IMG/VR virus record: IMGVR_UViG_3300046005_000204
Coordinates: 1 to 20,977 of that record
Strand: one strand, 5' to 3'
Length of the DNA stretch: 20,977 bases
DNA from: a virus
Of this stretch, positions 11,970 to 17,575 are shown piece after piece; position 1 is the first letter of the stretch; each line of letters starts with the position of its first letter. Under the pieces are notes generated by a model, which did not search any database, was not told where the DNA came from, and saw only the letters and a list, made by a program, of their open reading frames with translations. A program made the position numbers and the translations under genes.

Positions 11970-13085
11970 TTACAACTCCGAAGAAAATGTTGCGGTGGAA
12001 GCTGTTGAATTTATAGCTTCAATAAAATAAGGAATTAAAGCTGTCATAGCTGTTGATGTTCCAATAACTTTTGCTATCAAAGTAGAAGATTCTGTTGCAG
12101 AAATAACAATGTTGCTTAATGTTTGAGATGTAACACCATTTGACGCAGCCCAAGACCCTGCGTATGCAAATGCTGGTGTAGCTCTCATTTTTACAGGAAA
12201 TGTTGTAAACGCTAACATTGATGTTGTGCTTGCCGCAGTGCCGCCAGTTGCAAATTTGTTATATACAGAATCACCACCATAAACAATGCAATACCGCTGT
12301 GCAAGCTGAAGCTCGGTGGAATAAGGCCGATAGTCAAACGATGTGGCTGTGCTGCCTTTTTCAAGCTGAACGCCTGTGATGTAGAAGGTGGCTCCGTTTG
12401 TGCCGACTACGCTGGTTGCTCCTGTGGCAGAGTCGTATTCTGTACCAGCCCAAGCACCAGCGGTTCCTGAATATGTAGAGCCAACACCTAATCCAATAGA
12501 GATGTAAAGACCGACACCGTTTGTAGTTAGCCAAGTCCCCGATGTATCTCCCGCAATAGTTACTGATTTTTGCTCCCATGTATTTGCGGAAGAAATTGTG
12601 TAACTAAAAGGATACGAGCGAGTATATGCACTGTTTCCAATTGACCCGCCAAATGTTCCTGTTAAAGAACTGCGCACCCAAAATGACAAGGTTACTGAAG
12701 CCGCGCTTGCAGTCCCCCACGCAAAATCTGAGATATTTAAGCCTTCAACCCGTTGGACAATTTGAAACAAATCGGTGCTACTTATGGAATATGCCGAACT
12801 TGATGTAACTCCAAGATAGTTAATAAATCCAGCGGGCGGCGTTACCGAACCAGCATTTTGCTGGACTGTAAATTTAGAAGCTACTGAACCATACGCAAAC
12901 CATCTATCAAGGGTATATTGAACGGCAGTAGTTTGAGTAAATGAAGCTGTACTACGCTGACTTATTCCCATCGCACCATTGATGATGCGGTTACGGAAGG
13001 CTAGACCACCATAAAACGCACTTGTGTTTTGGGTTGACGCATCATTGAATGTCAAACCATTTGTTCCGTTTAGACTTACTGACAT
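11970..13085 (-). CDS. Tail fibre / receptor-binding protein
   Basis: The 371-residue start is at 13085, where AAGGAGACACT precedes the ATG; an upstream in-frame ATG at 13106 would read inside the endonuclease gene. The N-terminus (SLNGTNGLTFNDASTQNTSA) is the short attachment-type motif of phage fibres. The segment FRNRIINGAMGISQRSTASF and YTLDRWFAYG then begin a beta-sandwich resembling carbohydrate-binding modules. FYITGVQLEKGSTATSFDYR and ELQLAQRYCIVY follow at about 235-270, a pattern common in fibre proteins. The Ser/Thr-rich C-terminal region is probably the host-contact part. Adhesion to a host surface glycan is inferred from the family. It is the first full fibre gene after the homing endonuclease insertion. 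Confidence 0.85.
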   Translation of the reverse strand: MSVSLNGTNGLTFNDASTQNTSAFYGGLAFRNRIINGAMGISQRSTASFTQTTAVQYTLDRWFAYGSVASKFTVQQNAGSVTPPAGFINYLGVTSSSAYSISSTDLFQIVQRVEGLNISDFAWGTASAASVTLSFWVRSSLTGTFGGSIGNSAYTRSYPFSYTISSANTWEQKSVTIAGDTSGTWLTTNGVGLYISIGLGVGSTYSGTAGAWAGTEYDSATGATSVVGTNGATFYITGVQLEKGSTATSFDYRPYSTELQLAQRYCIVYGGDSVYNKFATGGTAASTTSMLAFTTFPVKMRATPAFAYAGSWAASNGVTSQTLSNIVISATESSTLIAKVIGTSTAMTALIPYFIEAINSTASTATFSSEL

Positions 13086-13729
13086 AGTGTCTCCTTGTAT
13101 GCCCATTCCATTCCATACGCTGTTTTTGACTTACCTAAACAGCACTTACTAATTGTAGTTCCGTGTCCTTTGTAAGACCTAGCGGCTTCAGATACAGACA
13201 TAAATTCTTTTTGGGTTGTTAAACAAACAACAGCCTTTGATGGCTTACCCCCACCTTCAGGACGTTTTCTTCCGTACAACGGGCTGTTAACTCCTTTTGG
13301 CTTGCTAACACCCAGCATAGCGCCAACTTTTCCCCACATAGGATTTAACTCCCCAAGATACCGTGCGCTCATTTCTGGGCGGGGTATGCCTTTCTTTGGG
13401 TGCAATTTTCCATACATCGGGTGATGAACCCCAGAAGGCGCTCCGTCAAACCCGTTTTCCGCAATTAGGTTGGCCCACTCTGGGTTGTTTGCAACGTCAT
13501 GCAGTTCACTAAACTCTTTTGCGGCAGCAAGGCATCTGGCTTCTTCAAAGTAAACACCGAGAACGCCTACGTCAATGTCTTTGCCATGAACTTTTAAATG
13601 ACGTTTCCAGTAATGCCCACTACCTCTGTAATACTTTAGCGTATTCAGTTGTGCTGTTTTGCAGAAATACTTCAGCCCTGTGACCCTGTGCGTCATCACG
13701 AGCAAAGCAGTAGGTGCAAAATTACTCAT
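13076..13729 (-). CDS. Homing endonuclease-like protein with NUMOD3 repeats (GIY-YIG-like N-terminus)
   Basis: The 217-residue protein starts at MSNFAP; an earlier in-frame ATG (13768) only reads the fibre fragment out of frame. Residues about 8-95 (THRVTGLKYFCKTAQ, YYRGSGHYWKRHLKVHG, EWANLIAENGFDG) match a phage family I regard as GIY-YIG-like nucleases, though the usual YFG is YFC here and the fit is distant. Three NUMOD3-like DNA-binding motifs follow: HHPMYGKLHP (102-111), ELNPMWGKVG (127-136) and VNSPLYGRKRPEGG (147-160). The C-terminus (KAVVCLTTQKEF, SVSEAARSY, AYGMEWAYKE) resembles NUMOD1/IENR1. Such enzymes cut at a specific site and copy their own gene there. The start overlaps a fibre fragment's stop (ATGAGTAA) and its end overlaps the next fibre's start by 10 bases. 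Activity is not shown. Confidence 0.85.
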   Translation of the reverse strand: MSNFAPTALLVMTHRVTGLKYFCKTAQLNTLKYYRGSGHYWKRHLKVHGKDIDVGVLGVYFEEARCLAAAKEFSELHDVANNPEWANLIAENGFDGAPSGVHHPMYGKLHPKKGIPRPEMSARYLGELNPMWGKVGAMLGVSKPKGVNSPLYGRKRPEGGGKPSKAVVCLTTQKEFMSVSEAARSYKGHGTTISKCCLGKSKTAYGMEWAYKETLCQ

Positions 13730-13811
13730 TGCCAAACCCTGTTGCTGCTGTTGCCTGTACCGAGGCATCGTTGAACGTGATGCCTGTTGTGCCGCCTATT
13801 GATGTGGTCAT
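13722..13811 (-). pseudogene. 5' fragment of a tail fibre gene, cut off by the homing endonuclease
   Basis: A 29-codon frame encodes MTTSIGGTTGITFNDASVQA followed by TAATGFGNE, then TAA. It matches the N-terminal attachment motif of phage fibres, including the next intact fibre in this window (NGTNGLTFNDASTQNTSA). It stops just where related fibres continue with a (F)RNRIINGAM segment, exactly where the endonuclease gene begins. The ATG overlaps the stop of the upstream assembly-like gene. It is best read as the remnant of a fibre gene interrupted by the mobile gene. It may still be translated and could serve as a translational lead-in for the endonuclease, whose own Shine-Dalgarno sequence is weak. 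Confidence 0.75.
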
Positions 13812-14065: not shown

Positions 14066-14598
14066 GCTGCAATCTCCATAAGAGTAATTGTAGAAACTGC
14101 GGAAGCAACTTGGCAACCAGCAAGAGAAGTACCTGAATCTGATGCAATTTGTGTTTTGTAAGTTGTAGATGAAGTTGTCGCTGGACTATCTAAATAATTA
14201 GTGCTTGCAGAAGCAACACCAATAAATGCAGTTGAACCTGATGCAGCACCATATCTGCAAAATATAGATAAATCAGTAGAGTTTCTTAATAATTTGAAAT
14301 TTGCAGAAGTGTCAGAAGTGCTTTTGTAAACACCATTTTGACTTACTAATACAAGAATTTTGCTGGTTGTGGATGTTGGTGTAATTGAAGCAGTTAAACC
14401 TGTATCAGCATAAGTAACAGATGCGTTTGTAACTGCTGTTGAAGTTGTAGCATTAACCACCTGCAACACAGTGCCAGCCGTAGCTGTTGTCAGCATAGTC
14501 CCTGTCACCGCAGGGACTGTGACCGTAAAGTTACTAGCTGTGTTTGTTGGGACAAGTTCGATGCTTCCACCGCTTGCCGCTGCGAGTTTAACTCCCAT
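14062..14598 (-). CDS. Small tail fibre protein
   Basis: The 178-residue protein begins GVKLAAASGGSIELVPTNTA followed by SNFTVTVPAVTGTMLTT, a fibre-type N-terminal module I recall from many aquatic phages. The rest is Ser/Thr/Ala-rich and probably beta (TSKILVLVSQNGVYKSTSD; SIFCRYGAASGSTAFIG), ending with STITLMEIAA. It has no membrane segment. Its ATG overlaps the stop of the S74 fibre gene (TAATG), and its stop overlaps the next gene's ATG. A surface-exposed fibre or fibre-tip role is inferred. The binding target is unknown. Confidence 0.82.
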   Translation of the reverse strand: MGVKLAAASGGSIELVPTNTASNFTVTVPAVTGTMLTTATAGTVLQVVNATTSTAVTNASVTYADTGLTASITPTSTTSKILVLVSQNGVYKSTSDTSANFKLLRNSTDLSIFCRYGAASGSTAFIGVASASTNYLDSPATTSSTTYKTQIASDSGTSLAGCQVASAVSTITLMEIAA

Positions 14599-15470
14599 TA
14601 TTTGTTCTCCAGTGCTGTGAGTCGAGTGGTCAGGGATGTGATGAGGGCTTGTTGCTCTTGGATAGCGGCTGTTAGTGTGGCGACCAAGAAGCTGGTGTCG
14701 ATGCCTTGGTACTTGGGGCGTGTGGCCTCGTTGCCGTCTTTGTCGGTGTAGGTTTCAACTGCATCTTTCTCACCAACAACAGCTTCAGGCACAACCGCTT
14801 GCAATTCGTGTGCGATAAAACCTTGCCCAAATAATCCATCCTCTTTCCATGTGTATGTACACGGTTTCAACAATGCAACTTTATCAATTGCACCCGTCAT
14901 TGGTTGGATATTTTCTTTTAAACGGTAATCAGAGGTAGTGCCGTATGTTGTTCCACCAGCGGTGGTGCTTACTAAGCCTTTGTAGGCTCCTTGGTAGTAC
15001 AGGTAAATATTTTCACCCGTCTGGCTATTAATGCCTACTCCATAAGCGCCAGATGCATTTGTGTTTGTAAAATATGCCGTAAATTGAGAAGCTGTTGATT
15101 GAGAAACATTAAATTTTGAACCCCCACCCAAAGTGCTTGTAGTCCCCACCAGCAAGTTACCGCTGATGTCGATGCGGGCGCGTTCAGTACCGCCTCGTGA
15201 AAACACTAAATTACTGTTGTTCTCAATGTCCCAGTAATTTGTTGAAAGGTCATTTAATCGCAGCACAACAGCGCTTGATTTTGTAAGTTCAAGACGTGCG
15301 CCCGGAGAAGCAGTGCCAACCCCCACGTTCTGACTTGTATCAATCGTGACTGCTGTTGTCCCTGCGCTTTGTAGTGTTAAGGCTGTGGCTGCTGCGGATG
15401 TGACGGTGTTGGTGTTTGTGAGCGTATTTGCCCCTGTAACCGTACCTGACCCGTTAATTGTGATTGTCAT
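14598..15470 (-). CDS. Tail fibre with C-terminal S74 intramolecular chaperone
   Basis: The 290-residue fibre has a Thr/Ala-rich N-terminal shaft (about 1-60, with NVGVGTASPGARLEL, typical of fibre repeats), a middle beta domain, and a peptidase S74/intramolecular chaperone domain at about 178-290. The autoprocessing motif TTSDYRLKENI holds S180, D181 and K185, the likely Ser-Lys pair; self-cleavage would fall between S180 and D181. Further conserved parts are GQGFIAHELQAVVPEAV and YQGIDTSFLVATLTAAIQEQ, ending in a coiled-coil heptad. This domain trimerises the fibre and is then cut off. AGGAA precedes the ATG. The S74 call is strong. Confidence 0.92.
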   Translation of the reverse strand: MTITINGSGTVTGANTLTNTNTVTSAAATALTLQSAGTTAVTIDTSQNVGVGTASPGARLELTKSSAVVLRLNDLSTNYWDIENNSNLVFSRGGTERARIDISGNLLVGTTSTLGGGSKFNVSQSTASQFTAYFTNTNASGAYGVGINSQTGENIYLYYQGAYKGLVSTTAGGTTYGTTSDYRLKENIQPMTGAIDKVALLKPCTYTWKEDGLFGQGFIAHELQAVVPEAVVGEKDAVETYTDKDGNEATRPKYQGIDTSFLVATLTAAIQEQQALITSLTTRLTALENK

Positions 15471-16603: not shown

Positions 16604-17575
16604 TTATCCTTGCGTATTGACGACTACCCAATTGGTAGTCTGCGCGTCGTTAATCACACCCCATCCGGGGGTCTGTGCGCTGCCTATATTTTGCCAGCTT
16701 ACGGTCTGGCTGTCATTGATAACTTCCCATAGTAACCGCACTGAGAACGAATCTGAGCCAGTAGCCGCCTCTTGGAGCGCAGCAATGAACACCGCTGTGG
16801 CTACAAAAACATCCGATCCCGTTAGGCTTTCGGTTATTGCTGTCTCAAATATAGCCAAAGAACTTGTCGTATCTGTGACTGCCCCGGTCTCACTTATAAA
16901 CGCCACAGCCCCTAACTGTCCAAAACTTGCATCCGTACCGGTCGCAGTATCTTCCGAAGTACCAAAGAACACGAACGATGTAGCCAACGCATCCAGCCCC
17001 GAAGCAGACTCGGTTATCGAGGTAAAGAACGCCTGCCATGCTGCATCTGCGTCAGTCACTGCCCCGGTCTCTGTAACGGCTGTCTCAAATGTCTGTGCTG
17101 CGGAGTCTGTCTGTGTTCCCGTAGCCGCCTCTACCACGGCGGTAATAAACGTCTGTATTGCTGAAGCCGCATCTGTTACCGTGCCTGTTTCCGTCAAGGC
17201 TGACACATACACCTGCACTGCCGAATTAATGTCTGTTGCGGTCGCAGACTCTGCCAAACTAGGTGTAAACGTGCTTCCGGCTACTAAGTCAACATCGGTT
17301 ACGGTTCCTGTCTCTGATATTCCGGTAACAAATGTCTGCGTTGAACTTACTGTCTCTGAGCCTGTACCTGCTTCTGTAACCGCTGTCTCAAACGTCTGCG
17401 CTGAACTTATTGTCTCTGTACCTGTTGCTGTTTCTGCCAGAAAAGATACAAAAAGTTGTATAGCCGCTGCTACATCCGTCCCCGTGGCTGTCTCTTCAAT
17501 GCTAGACGCATAGGTAGTTGGGACTTGCCCAAGGGCGGCAAAGGGAGCCTGAGCAAAGGTGGCGTAGCCAAACAT
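16604..17575 (-). CDS. Tandem-repeat fibre protein (thirteen ~20-residue repeats)
   Basis: The 323-residue protein has a short leader (MFGYATFAQAPFAALG) and then thirteen near-regular 20-residue repeats at about 26-284. The pattern is hydrophobic-x-E-[ST/A]-[AG]-[TS/A]-G-[TS]-[DE]-(x)n-F-x-x-[AS], as in LAETATGTETISSAQTFETA and VTETGAVTDADAAWQAFFTS. It ends in a 40-residue tail where Trp recurs every 11 residues (283, 294, 305, 316), for example SAQTPGWGVINDAQTTNW. It is Thr/Ala/Glu-rich with no Cys and no membrane segment, so a beta-helical or elongated fibre shaft is likely. The ATG follows a small UUCG hairpin that contains the only purine-rich Shine-Dalgarno-like stretch. The leader resembles fibre proteins of uncultured freshwater phages from memory. 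The function is inferred. Confidence 0.85.
   Translation of the reverse strand: MFGYATFAQAPFAALGQVPTTYASSIEETATGTDVAAAIQLFVSFLAETATGTETISSAQTFETAVTEAGTGSETVSSTQTFVTGISETGTVTDVDLVAGSTFTPSLAESATATDINSAVQVYVSALTETGTVTDAASAIQTFITAVVEAATGTQTDSAAQTFETAVTETGAVTDADAAWQAFFTSITESASGLDALATSFVFFGTSEDTATGTDASFGQLGAVAFISETGAVTDTTSSLAIFETAITESLTGSDVFVATAVFIAALQEAATGSDSFSVRLLWEVINDSQTVSWQNIGSAQTPGWGVINDAQTTNWVVVNTQG
16724..17500 (-). repeat. Thirteen ~60-bp coding repeats
   Basis: The repeat protein is encoded by thirteen units of 60 bases (one of 63, and the last shortened to 54). They are mostly diverged, but some stretches are nearly identical, such as gctgtctcaaacgtctgcgc and gctgtctcaaatgtctgtgc at different units. 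All unit lengths are multiples of three, so recombination between units would change shaft length in frame. Confidence 0.85.

Follow-up and report, generated by a model that had tools for sequence, protein, structure and literature searches.

The mobile atp6 element of Allomyces is similar to the replacement elements of fungal mitochondria. In these mitochondria, a homing-type element has been found to bring with it a replacement N-terminal part of its host gene (PMC7315562). T4-like phages carry free-standing homing endonucleases such as SegF, SegG, and MobE, and in phage Aeh1 mobE splits nrdA (PMC2988022). HEG islands and domain-swapped homing genes have also been described in phages (PMC10448857). 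Free-standing phage homing genes, split genes, start/stop overlaps with upstream ORFs, and domain swaps are thus already known (PMC2988022, PMC10448857).

We analyzed a fibre locus in a 20,977-base IMG/VR virus record (hereafter the window, meaning this whole stretch), which comes from an aquatic virus of bacteria and has its large structural genes all on the minus strand. An earlier note on this DNA had described a short fibre stub, an endonuclease gene, and an intact fibre gene in succession; all of these elements lie on the minus strand at the place given there and are as described (Table 1). Upstream of the stub is the gene of a small protein ending in ...KEEFPK, whose stop codon overlaps the stub start. 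The endonuclease gene has an ATG at 13729 and a stop codon at 13076-13078, and ATGAGTAA is therefore a start/stop overlap of the stub stop with the endonuclease start. The neighboring fibre has its own start as well, an ATG at 13085 that falls within the final endonuclease codons (ATGTCAGTAA). With its own start and stop codons, and with no match and no intron found in an Rfam scan of the window, the endonuclease gene does not lie within a self-splicing intron or an intein. Scans for tRNAs, for promoters and terminators, and against Rfam gave nothing exceeding chance. Elsewhere in the window, positions 16604-17575 (minus strand) encode a protein of many degenerate repeats (ETGTVTD...), and these repeats probably also account for a long open frame of 344 aa on the other strand. 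Positions 14598-15470 (minus strand) encode a second fibre-like protein, whose C-terminus carries a Peptidase_S74 (endosialidase chaperone) domain (Pfam, E 4.5e-13); several small fibre-like genes lie in the same region.

Table 1. Features of the fibre locus, in window coordinates.
Feature	Position	Strand	Evidence
Stub, displaced 5' end of a fibre gene, 29 codons	13722..13811	-	Sequence MTTSIGGTTGITFNDASVQATAATGFGNE*; 93/93 nt match to L040
Free-standing homing endonuclease gene, 217 aa	13076..13729	-	PHROG 314 and predicted fold
AAGGAG, Shine-Dalgarno-like motif for the fibre, within the 3' end of the endonuclease gene	13091..13096	-	Position common in relatives
New fibre head, 31 codons, co-travelling with the endonuclease	12993..13085	-	Unrelated to L068 head; co-variation; L100/L107
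Head/body joint, codons NRIINGAM, presumed homing region in empty alleles	12969..12992	-	Clustered stub breaks; recoding
Fibre body, carbohydrate-binding-module-like	11970..12974	-	L068 match; fold matches CBM families 4, 11, 22
Complete fibre gene, 371 aa, FRNRIINGAM, begins MSVSLNGTNGLTFNDASTQNTSAFYGGLAFRNRIINGAM	11970..13085	-	ORF reading

The endonuclease had been taken for a homing nuclease bearing NUMOD3. The first part of this description is upheld by a match to PHROG family 314, "homing endonuclease" (E 4e-9), and by the predicted fold; the second is not, as NUMOD3 remains under the Pfam cut-off (18.3 vs 20.4 bits), next to further weak NUMOD/HTH matches. The structure predicted from 24 aligned relatives comprises a confident N-terminal domain (residues 1-90, block pLDDT about 80-94) and a confident C-terminal domain from about residue 161, with an uncertain linker between them. 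For the N-terminal domain (residues 5-94), the best match is I-TevI, whose catalytic domain aligns over 88 residues with Z 8.8, ahead of weaker UvrC GIY-YIG domains; the C-terminal domain resembles the DNA-binding regions of I-HmuI (Z 7.9) and, with Z 5.3, of I-TevI. The model thus pairs the catalytic fold of a homing nuclease with a DNA-binding domain set apart from it, and the lack of any nuclease or DNA-binding fold, which would have spoken against a homing gene, was not observed. No Pfam GIY-YIG match was obtained for the window family, in which the canonical residues are replaced; the GIY and YIG positions of the window protein read LLV and YFC (by eye), and the protein lacks the GIY...YIG signature. 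We therefore call it GIY-YIG-like by its predicted fold, with putative catalysis, as a protein that works like this class rather than a proven member.

A second endonuclease family found in the same slot (L020 type; loci used for comparison are given by L number) matches both GIY-YIG and NUMOD3 in Pfam. Our initial view that the two families are unrelated was dropped after the structure search, which suggests that the catalytic folds are of the GIY-YIG type in both and that the DNA-binding parts differ. One gene is a chimera of the two (L006:4001-4792, window-type front and L020-type back): its nt 1-323 are 95% identical to the window gene and its nt 447-784 are 91% identical to the L020 gene. 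The same locus has lost the stub motif. A scan of a genome collection for the window-type endonuclease returned no relative, the PDB contains no sequence relative, and the only matches among sequenced phages are two Vibrio phage records at 32% identity. No homing gene was found among the other window proteins scanned, leaving a single endonuclease at the locus.

Phage tail fibres are mosaics of head and variable body, and to our knowledge the agent that makes the cuts in these mosaics is mostly unknown. In the predicted structure of the window fibre, the first 45 residues have low confidence, and this head is probably flexible; a well-defined beta-rich body begins at about residue 50. The best fold matches of the body are carbohydrate-binding modules, fitting a putative receptor-binding role. 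At the boundary between head and body, the NRIING residues are invariant or nearly so in 35 fibres. Such a joint is a good target for a homing enzyme, and its short stretch of conserved DNA permits crossover there.

Comparison with other loci revealed that the window combines three sources. The 93 nt up to 2 nt before the endonuclease start, that is, the stub and 13 upstream bases, equal the 5' end of the L040 fibre gene at 93 of 93 positions. The L040 fibre is uninterrupted and continues GFG-FKNRLINGSM, the match to the stub breaking 7 nt before the N codon of NRIING. The comparison with endonuclease-free relatives that had been called for thus yielded an uninterrupted gene joining the stub sequence to an NRLING-type body. 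Uninterrupted (empty) alleles are also present in L167 and L168, and L100/L107 form a near-isogenic pair. These alleles bear out the earlier proposal that a homing gene was inserted in a fibre gene just before RNRIINGAM. The fibre body, in turn, matches that of L068 over ~640 nt, from 12974 to about 12333, with 29-30 of 30 nt identical per bin (97-100%). This match starts 18 nt into the joint and is preceded, before the joint, by chance-level identity. In L068, which is endonuclease-free, the head is another one (MTLAVNIAQSGANNVSF), and the gene before the fibre is small and does not encode a nuclease. Between stub and body, the window has the endonuclease and a new head unrelated to that of L068. 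Since the stub is the 5' end of L040 and the body is that of L068 under another head, the window consists here of an old stub, an inserted block of endonuclease plus new fibre head, and an old body. The element thus includes a foreign part of its host gene and has left the displaced part behind as a stub, with the old body retained, which is what one would expect to remain after an endonuclease-plus-head cassette had been inserted at the joint.

The downstream fibre had instead been regarded as the rest of the split gene, restarted from a separate start. A simple split of this kind, in which the endonuclease was inserted and the downstream part regained a start in place, would agree with the stub and the downstream fibre being of the same general motif type. 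We nevertheless consider it very improbable, as the downstream gene has a whole second head, complete and different, and its body, shared with L068, is joined at a sharp break relative to that locus. The window is an IMG/VR fragment and might as such be an assembly chimera, but the same stub-endonuclease-fibre order with the same junctions is present in three more IMG/VR contigs from other metagenomes (L001, L002, and L003), and related arrangements with analogous junctions occur in dozens more; we give an assembly artifact almost no credence.

A scan of IMG/VR for the two endonuclease families gave 57 loci after removal of identical copies (25 of the window type and 32 of the L020 type), and in every one of them the gene immediately following the endonuclease is a fibre gene whose joint is of the NRIING type. 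Among 64 endonuclease-plus-fibre loci examined, the fibre start usually overlaps the endonuclease stop, and in 60 of them the 3' end of the endonuclease gene contains a Shine-Dalgarno-like motif for the fibre. A fibre stub precedes the endonuclease in about half of the loci, fused to it in frame in a few (L099, L174, L175, and L188); elsewhere the endonuclease follows the stop codon of a non-fibre gene. Among stubs that have an intact counterpart, 20 loci with about a dozen head types place the break within -10 to +12 nt of the NRIING N codon (L183 and L192, whose alignments overrun the break, were left out); as exceptions, the stubs of L005 and L020 are shorter and end at about -60. Nuclease-like genes of other kinds (HNH and additional GIY-YIG types) were recognized by eye in the same slot in L036, L079, L121, L203, and L206. 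No endonuclease is annotated beside the fibre in any of five phage records that have related fibres, four of them from named isolates and one uncultured. More distant window-type endonucleases occupy a second slot in L196-L210 (e.g., L205:552-1178), immediately behind a small gene whose product ends in ...PADE; a PADE-like tail also closes several of these endonucleases, as though the end of that gene had been captured. In the fibre region at L134:2030-4010, there are two GIY-YIG-like genes that differ from one another, and the fibre-like genes that immediately follow them differ as well.

The stub could itself be functional, as a leader peptide that couples translation to the endonuclease. 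The ATGAGTAA overlap would fit this, as would L005/L006, in which a 45-nt in-frame deletion took out the stub motif and kept the stop/start overlap. However, in L020 the endonuclease starts only after the stub has ended, and a fibre stub is absent from about half of the loci, so we judge a leader function improbable. Translational coupling may still exist as a by-product, compatible with homing.

Fibre stubs are also found without an endonuclease, in L013 (5230-5485) and L027 (5240-5360), where the next gene is in each case a different fibre gene that has a Shine-Dalgarno motif of its own; the L027 stub breaks at AAGAACCGC, inside the joint itself. It follows that stubs can arise or persist without an endonuclease. 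The earlier note had named a stand-alone stub ORF in endonuclease-free relatives as evidence against insertion, and these two loci come close to it, as stubs that stand before other fibres.

We then compared loci whose endonucleases are 95-100% alike (L242/L243/L244, L174/L175, L187/L190, L252/L254, L246/L253, and L024/L185). Their heads are 92-100% alike, mostly together with the first 60 nt past the joint, while their bodies are only 57-68% alike and the upstream DNA is mostly 57-81% alike (in L024/L185, the upstream DNA is alike as well). The near-isogenic pair L100/L107, from two metagenomes, delimits the exchanged tract. On the left side, 1594 nt are identical except for two bases in the last 11 nt; L107 has the endonuclease and L100 lacks it; on the right side, all 21 differences fall in about fibre codons 5-25 and are followed by 1360 identical bases. 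Whichever the direction of the event, the exchanged piece is, as the alignment has it, the endonuclease plus the head. L100 already has a recoded joint, and the pair may therefore record a loss rather than a gain. Among fibres with no endonuclease, too, heads recur as shared blocks flanked by unrelated sequence on both sides, upstream and downstream. These blocks and the stubs of L013 and L027 make the joint a general recombination point, and such endonuclease-free control pairs weaken the idea that head swapping is driven solely by the endonuclease. The endonuclease may have caused some of the joint events and later been lost, or it may exploit a point that recombines anyway.

The joint sequence itself differs beside the endonuclease. 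Fibres without either endonuclease mostly read GGN TTY AAR AAC CGC ATC ATC AAY GGY GCN ATG at the joint. In L020-type (GIY-YIG family) loci, the AACCGCATCATC core was kept, meaning within two mismatches, in 3 of 28 loci, against 60 of 82 without an endonuclease; two of the three exceptions (L273 and L274) have an N-terminal sequence start unlike that of the rest of the family. The recoding is varied (TCA AGA, AAT AAA, AGA ATT ATA, and CGC CTG). The contrast was robust to clustering at 80% identity (p 2e-4) and was also seen where the amino acids NRII are unchanged (2/9 vs 55/72). A GC-stratified permutation (p 5e-5) rejected the recoding as a mere effect of AT-rich genomes. A bias from fetching the controls by their similarity to the window fibre was likewise discarded, as control fibres fetched through the upstream gene gave the same picture (15/17 with the common core). 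Window-type loci keep the core, but the upstream half of the joint, GGN TTY AAR/CGN AAY, is intact in only 2 of 25, compared to 52 of 91 (p 0.01 after clustering), a weaker contrast because the changed bases belong to the head and are confounded with head type. Taken together, the two contrasts look like homing immunity with different sub-sites in each family. These joint changes also bear on whether the endonuclease is a mere passenger in a piece swapped by ordinary or illegitimate recombination at the conserved joint. The head blocks common to unrelated contexts without endonucleases and the L027 stub, cut at the joint with no endonuclease, agree with a passenger; the family-specific joint changes beside the endonuclease, the several nuclease types in the same slot, and the joint exchange of endonuclease and head in L100/L107 do not, and we regard this explanation as unlikely.

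We consider it likely that a free-standing homing endonuclease gene restores the fibre gene that it invades by carrying a complete replacement 5' end, the head. The enzyme would most likely cut the fibre genes of other phages at or near the conserved NRIINGAM joint, between flexible head and carbohydrate-binding body, and repair would copy the endonuclease and the head into the break. On the right side, crossover would take place within 20-60 nt of conserved joint sequence, so that the recipient would keep its own body under the new head. On the left side, the old head of the recipient would stay as a short stub feeding ribosomes to the endonuclease, or, in exchanges that extend across the upstream gene, would disappear. 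The new head would bring a joint sequence no longer cut by the enzyme. Cleavage, its exact site, homing during co-infection, and the immunity given by the altered joint are steps that we infer; the composite structure, the clustering of breaks, the co-travel of endonuclease and head, and the altered joint are read directly in the sequence. Homing is favored by the stub identity with L040, the sharp break relative to L068, breaks at one joint across head types, co-travel, L100/L107, recoding, the predicted fold, and the lack of an intron. Counting against it are head sharing without endonucleases, L013 and L027, the recoded joint of L100, the missing GIY-YIG residues, and the confounding with head type.

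It had also been proposed that the locus could drive the exchange of host-range genes between phages. Since the endonuclease and the head would move while the putative receptor-binding body stays, our data support this idea only indirectly. The arrangement could nonetheless explain part of the mixing and matching of phage tail fibres. It places a nuclease gene at the exact joint in dozens of lineages, with altered neighboring joints and near-isogenic alleles that show the exchanged tract, making homing-driven fibre shuffling directly testable. It also indicates that a selfish gene can invade coding sequence without a self-splicing intron or intein, by bringing along the missing 5' end. We are evenly divided on whether it represents a distinct and widespread phage mobile element, a homing gene that targets the conserved joint, always comes with its own uncuttable head, grafts this head to new bodies in repeated rounds of homing, and is thereby a main engine of fibre mosaicism in aquatic phages, with at least two endonuclease families that each have their own protected joint form.

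In the full-text literature, with most subscription journals outside it and hence as weak evidence of absence, we did not find this arrangement described for phage fibre genes, and the report on HEG islands makes no mention of tail fibres (PMC10448857). The systems of that report resemble the present one in having homing genes at the boundaries of exchanged DNA and swaps of nuclease and DNA-binding domains, as in L006. HEG islands are, however, large, have a nuclease gene on either side, and lack sharp ends, whereas the element here has one endonuclease gene, with no second one on the other side of the cargo, measures about 0.75 kb overall, and ends sharply on the right, at the joint. With the T4-type genes, the locus shares a stand-alone nuclease gene beside or inside a conserved gene, a start that overlaps the upstream ORF, and an assumed alteration of the carrier's target. 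T4-type insertions lie between genes or leave two split halves, and descriptions of them include no replacement front end for the target gene. The fungal mitochondrial elements do bring one: as here, a foreign N-terminal copy is supplied, the resident part is displaced, and the gene gains a new front end. Those elements are described as introns of mitochondrial genes, while the one described here is a free-standing gene that acts on a phage virion gene, occurs in many lineages, and has the joint of its neighbor altered.
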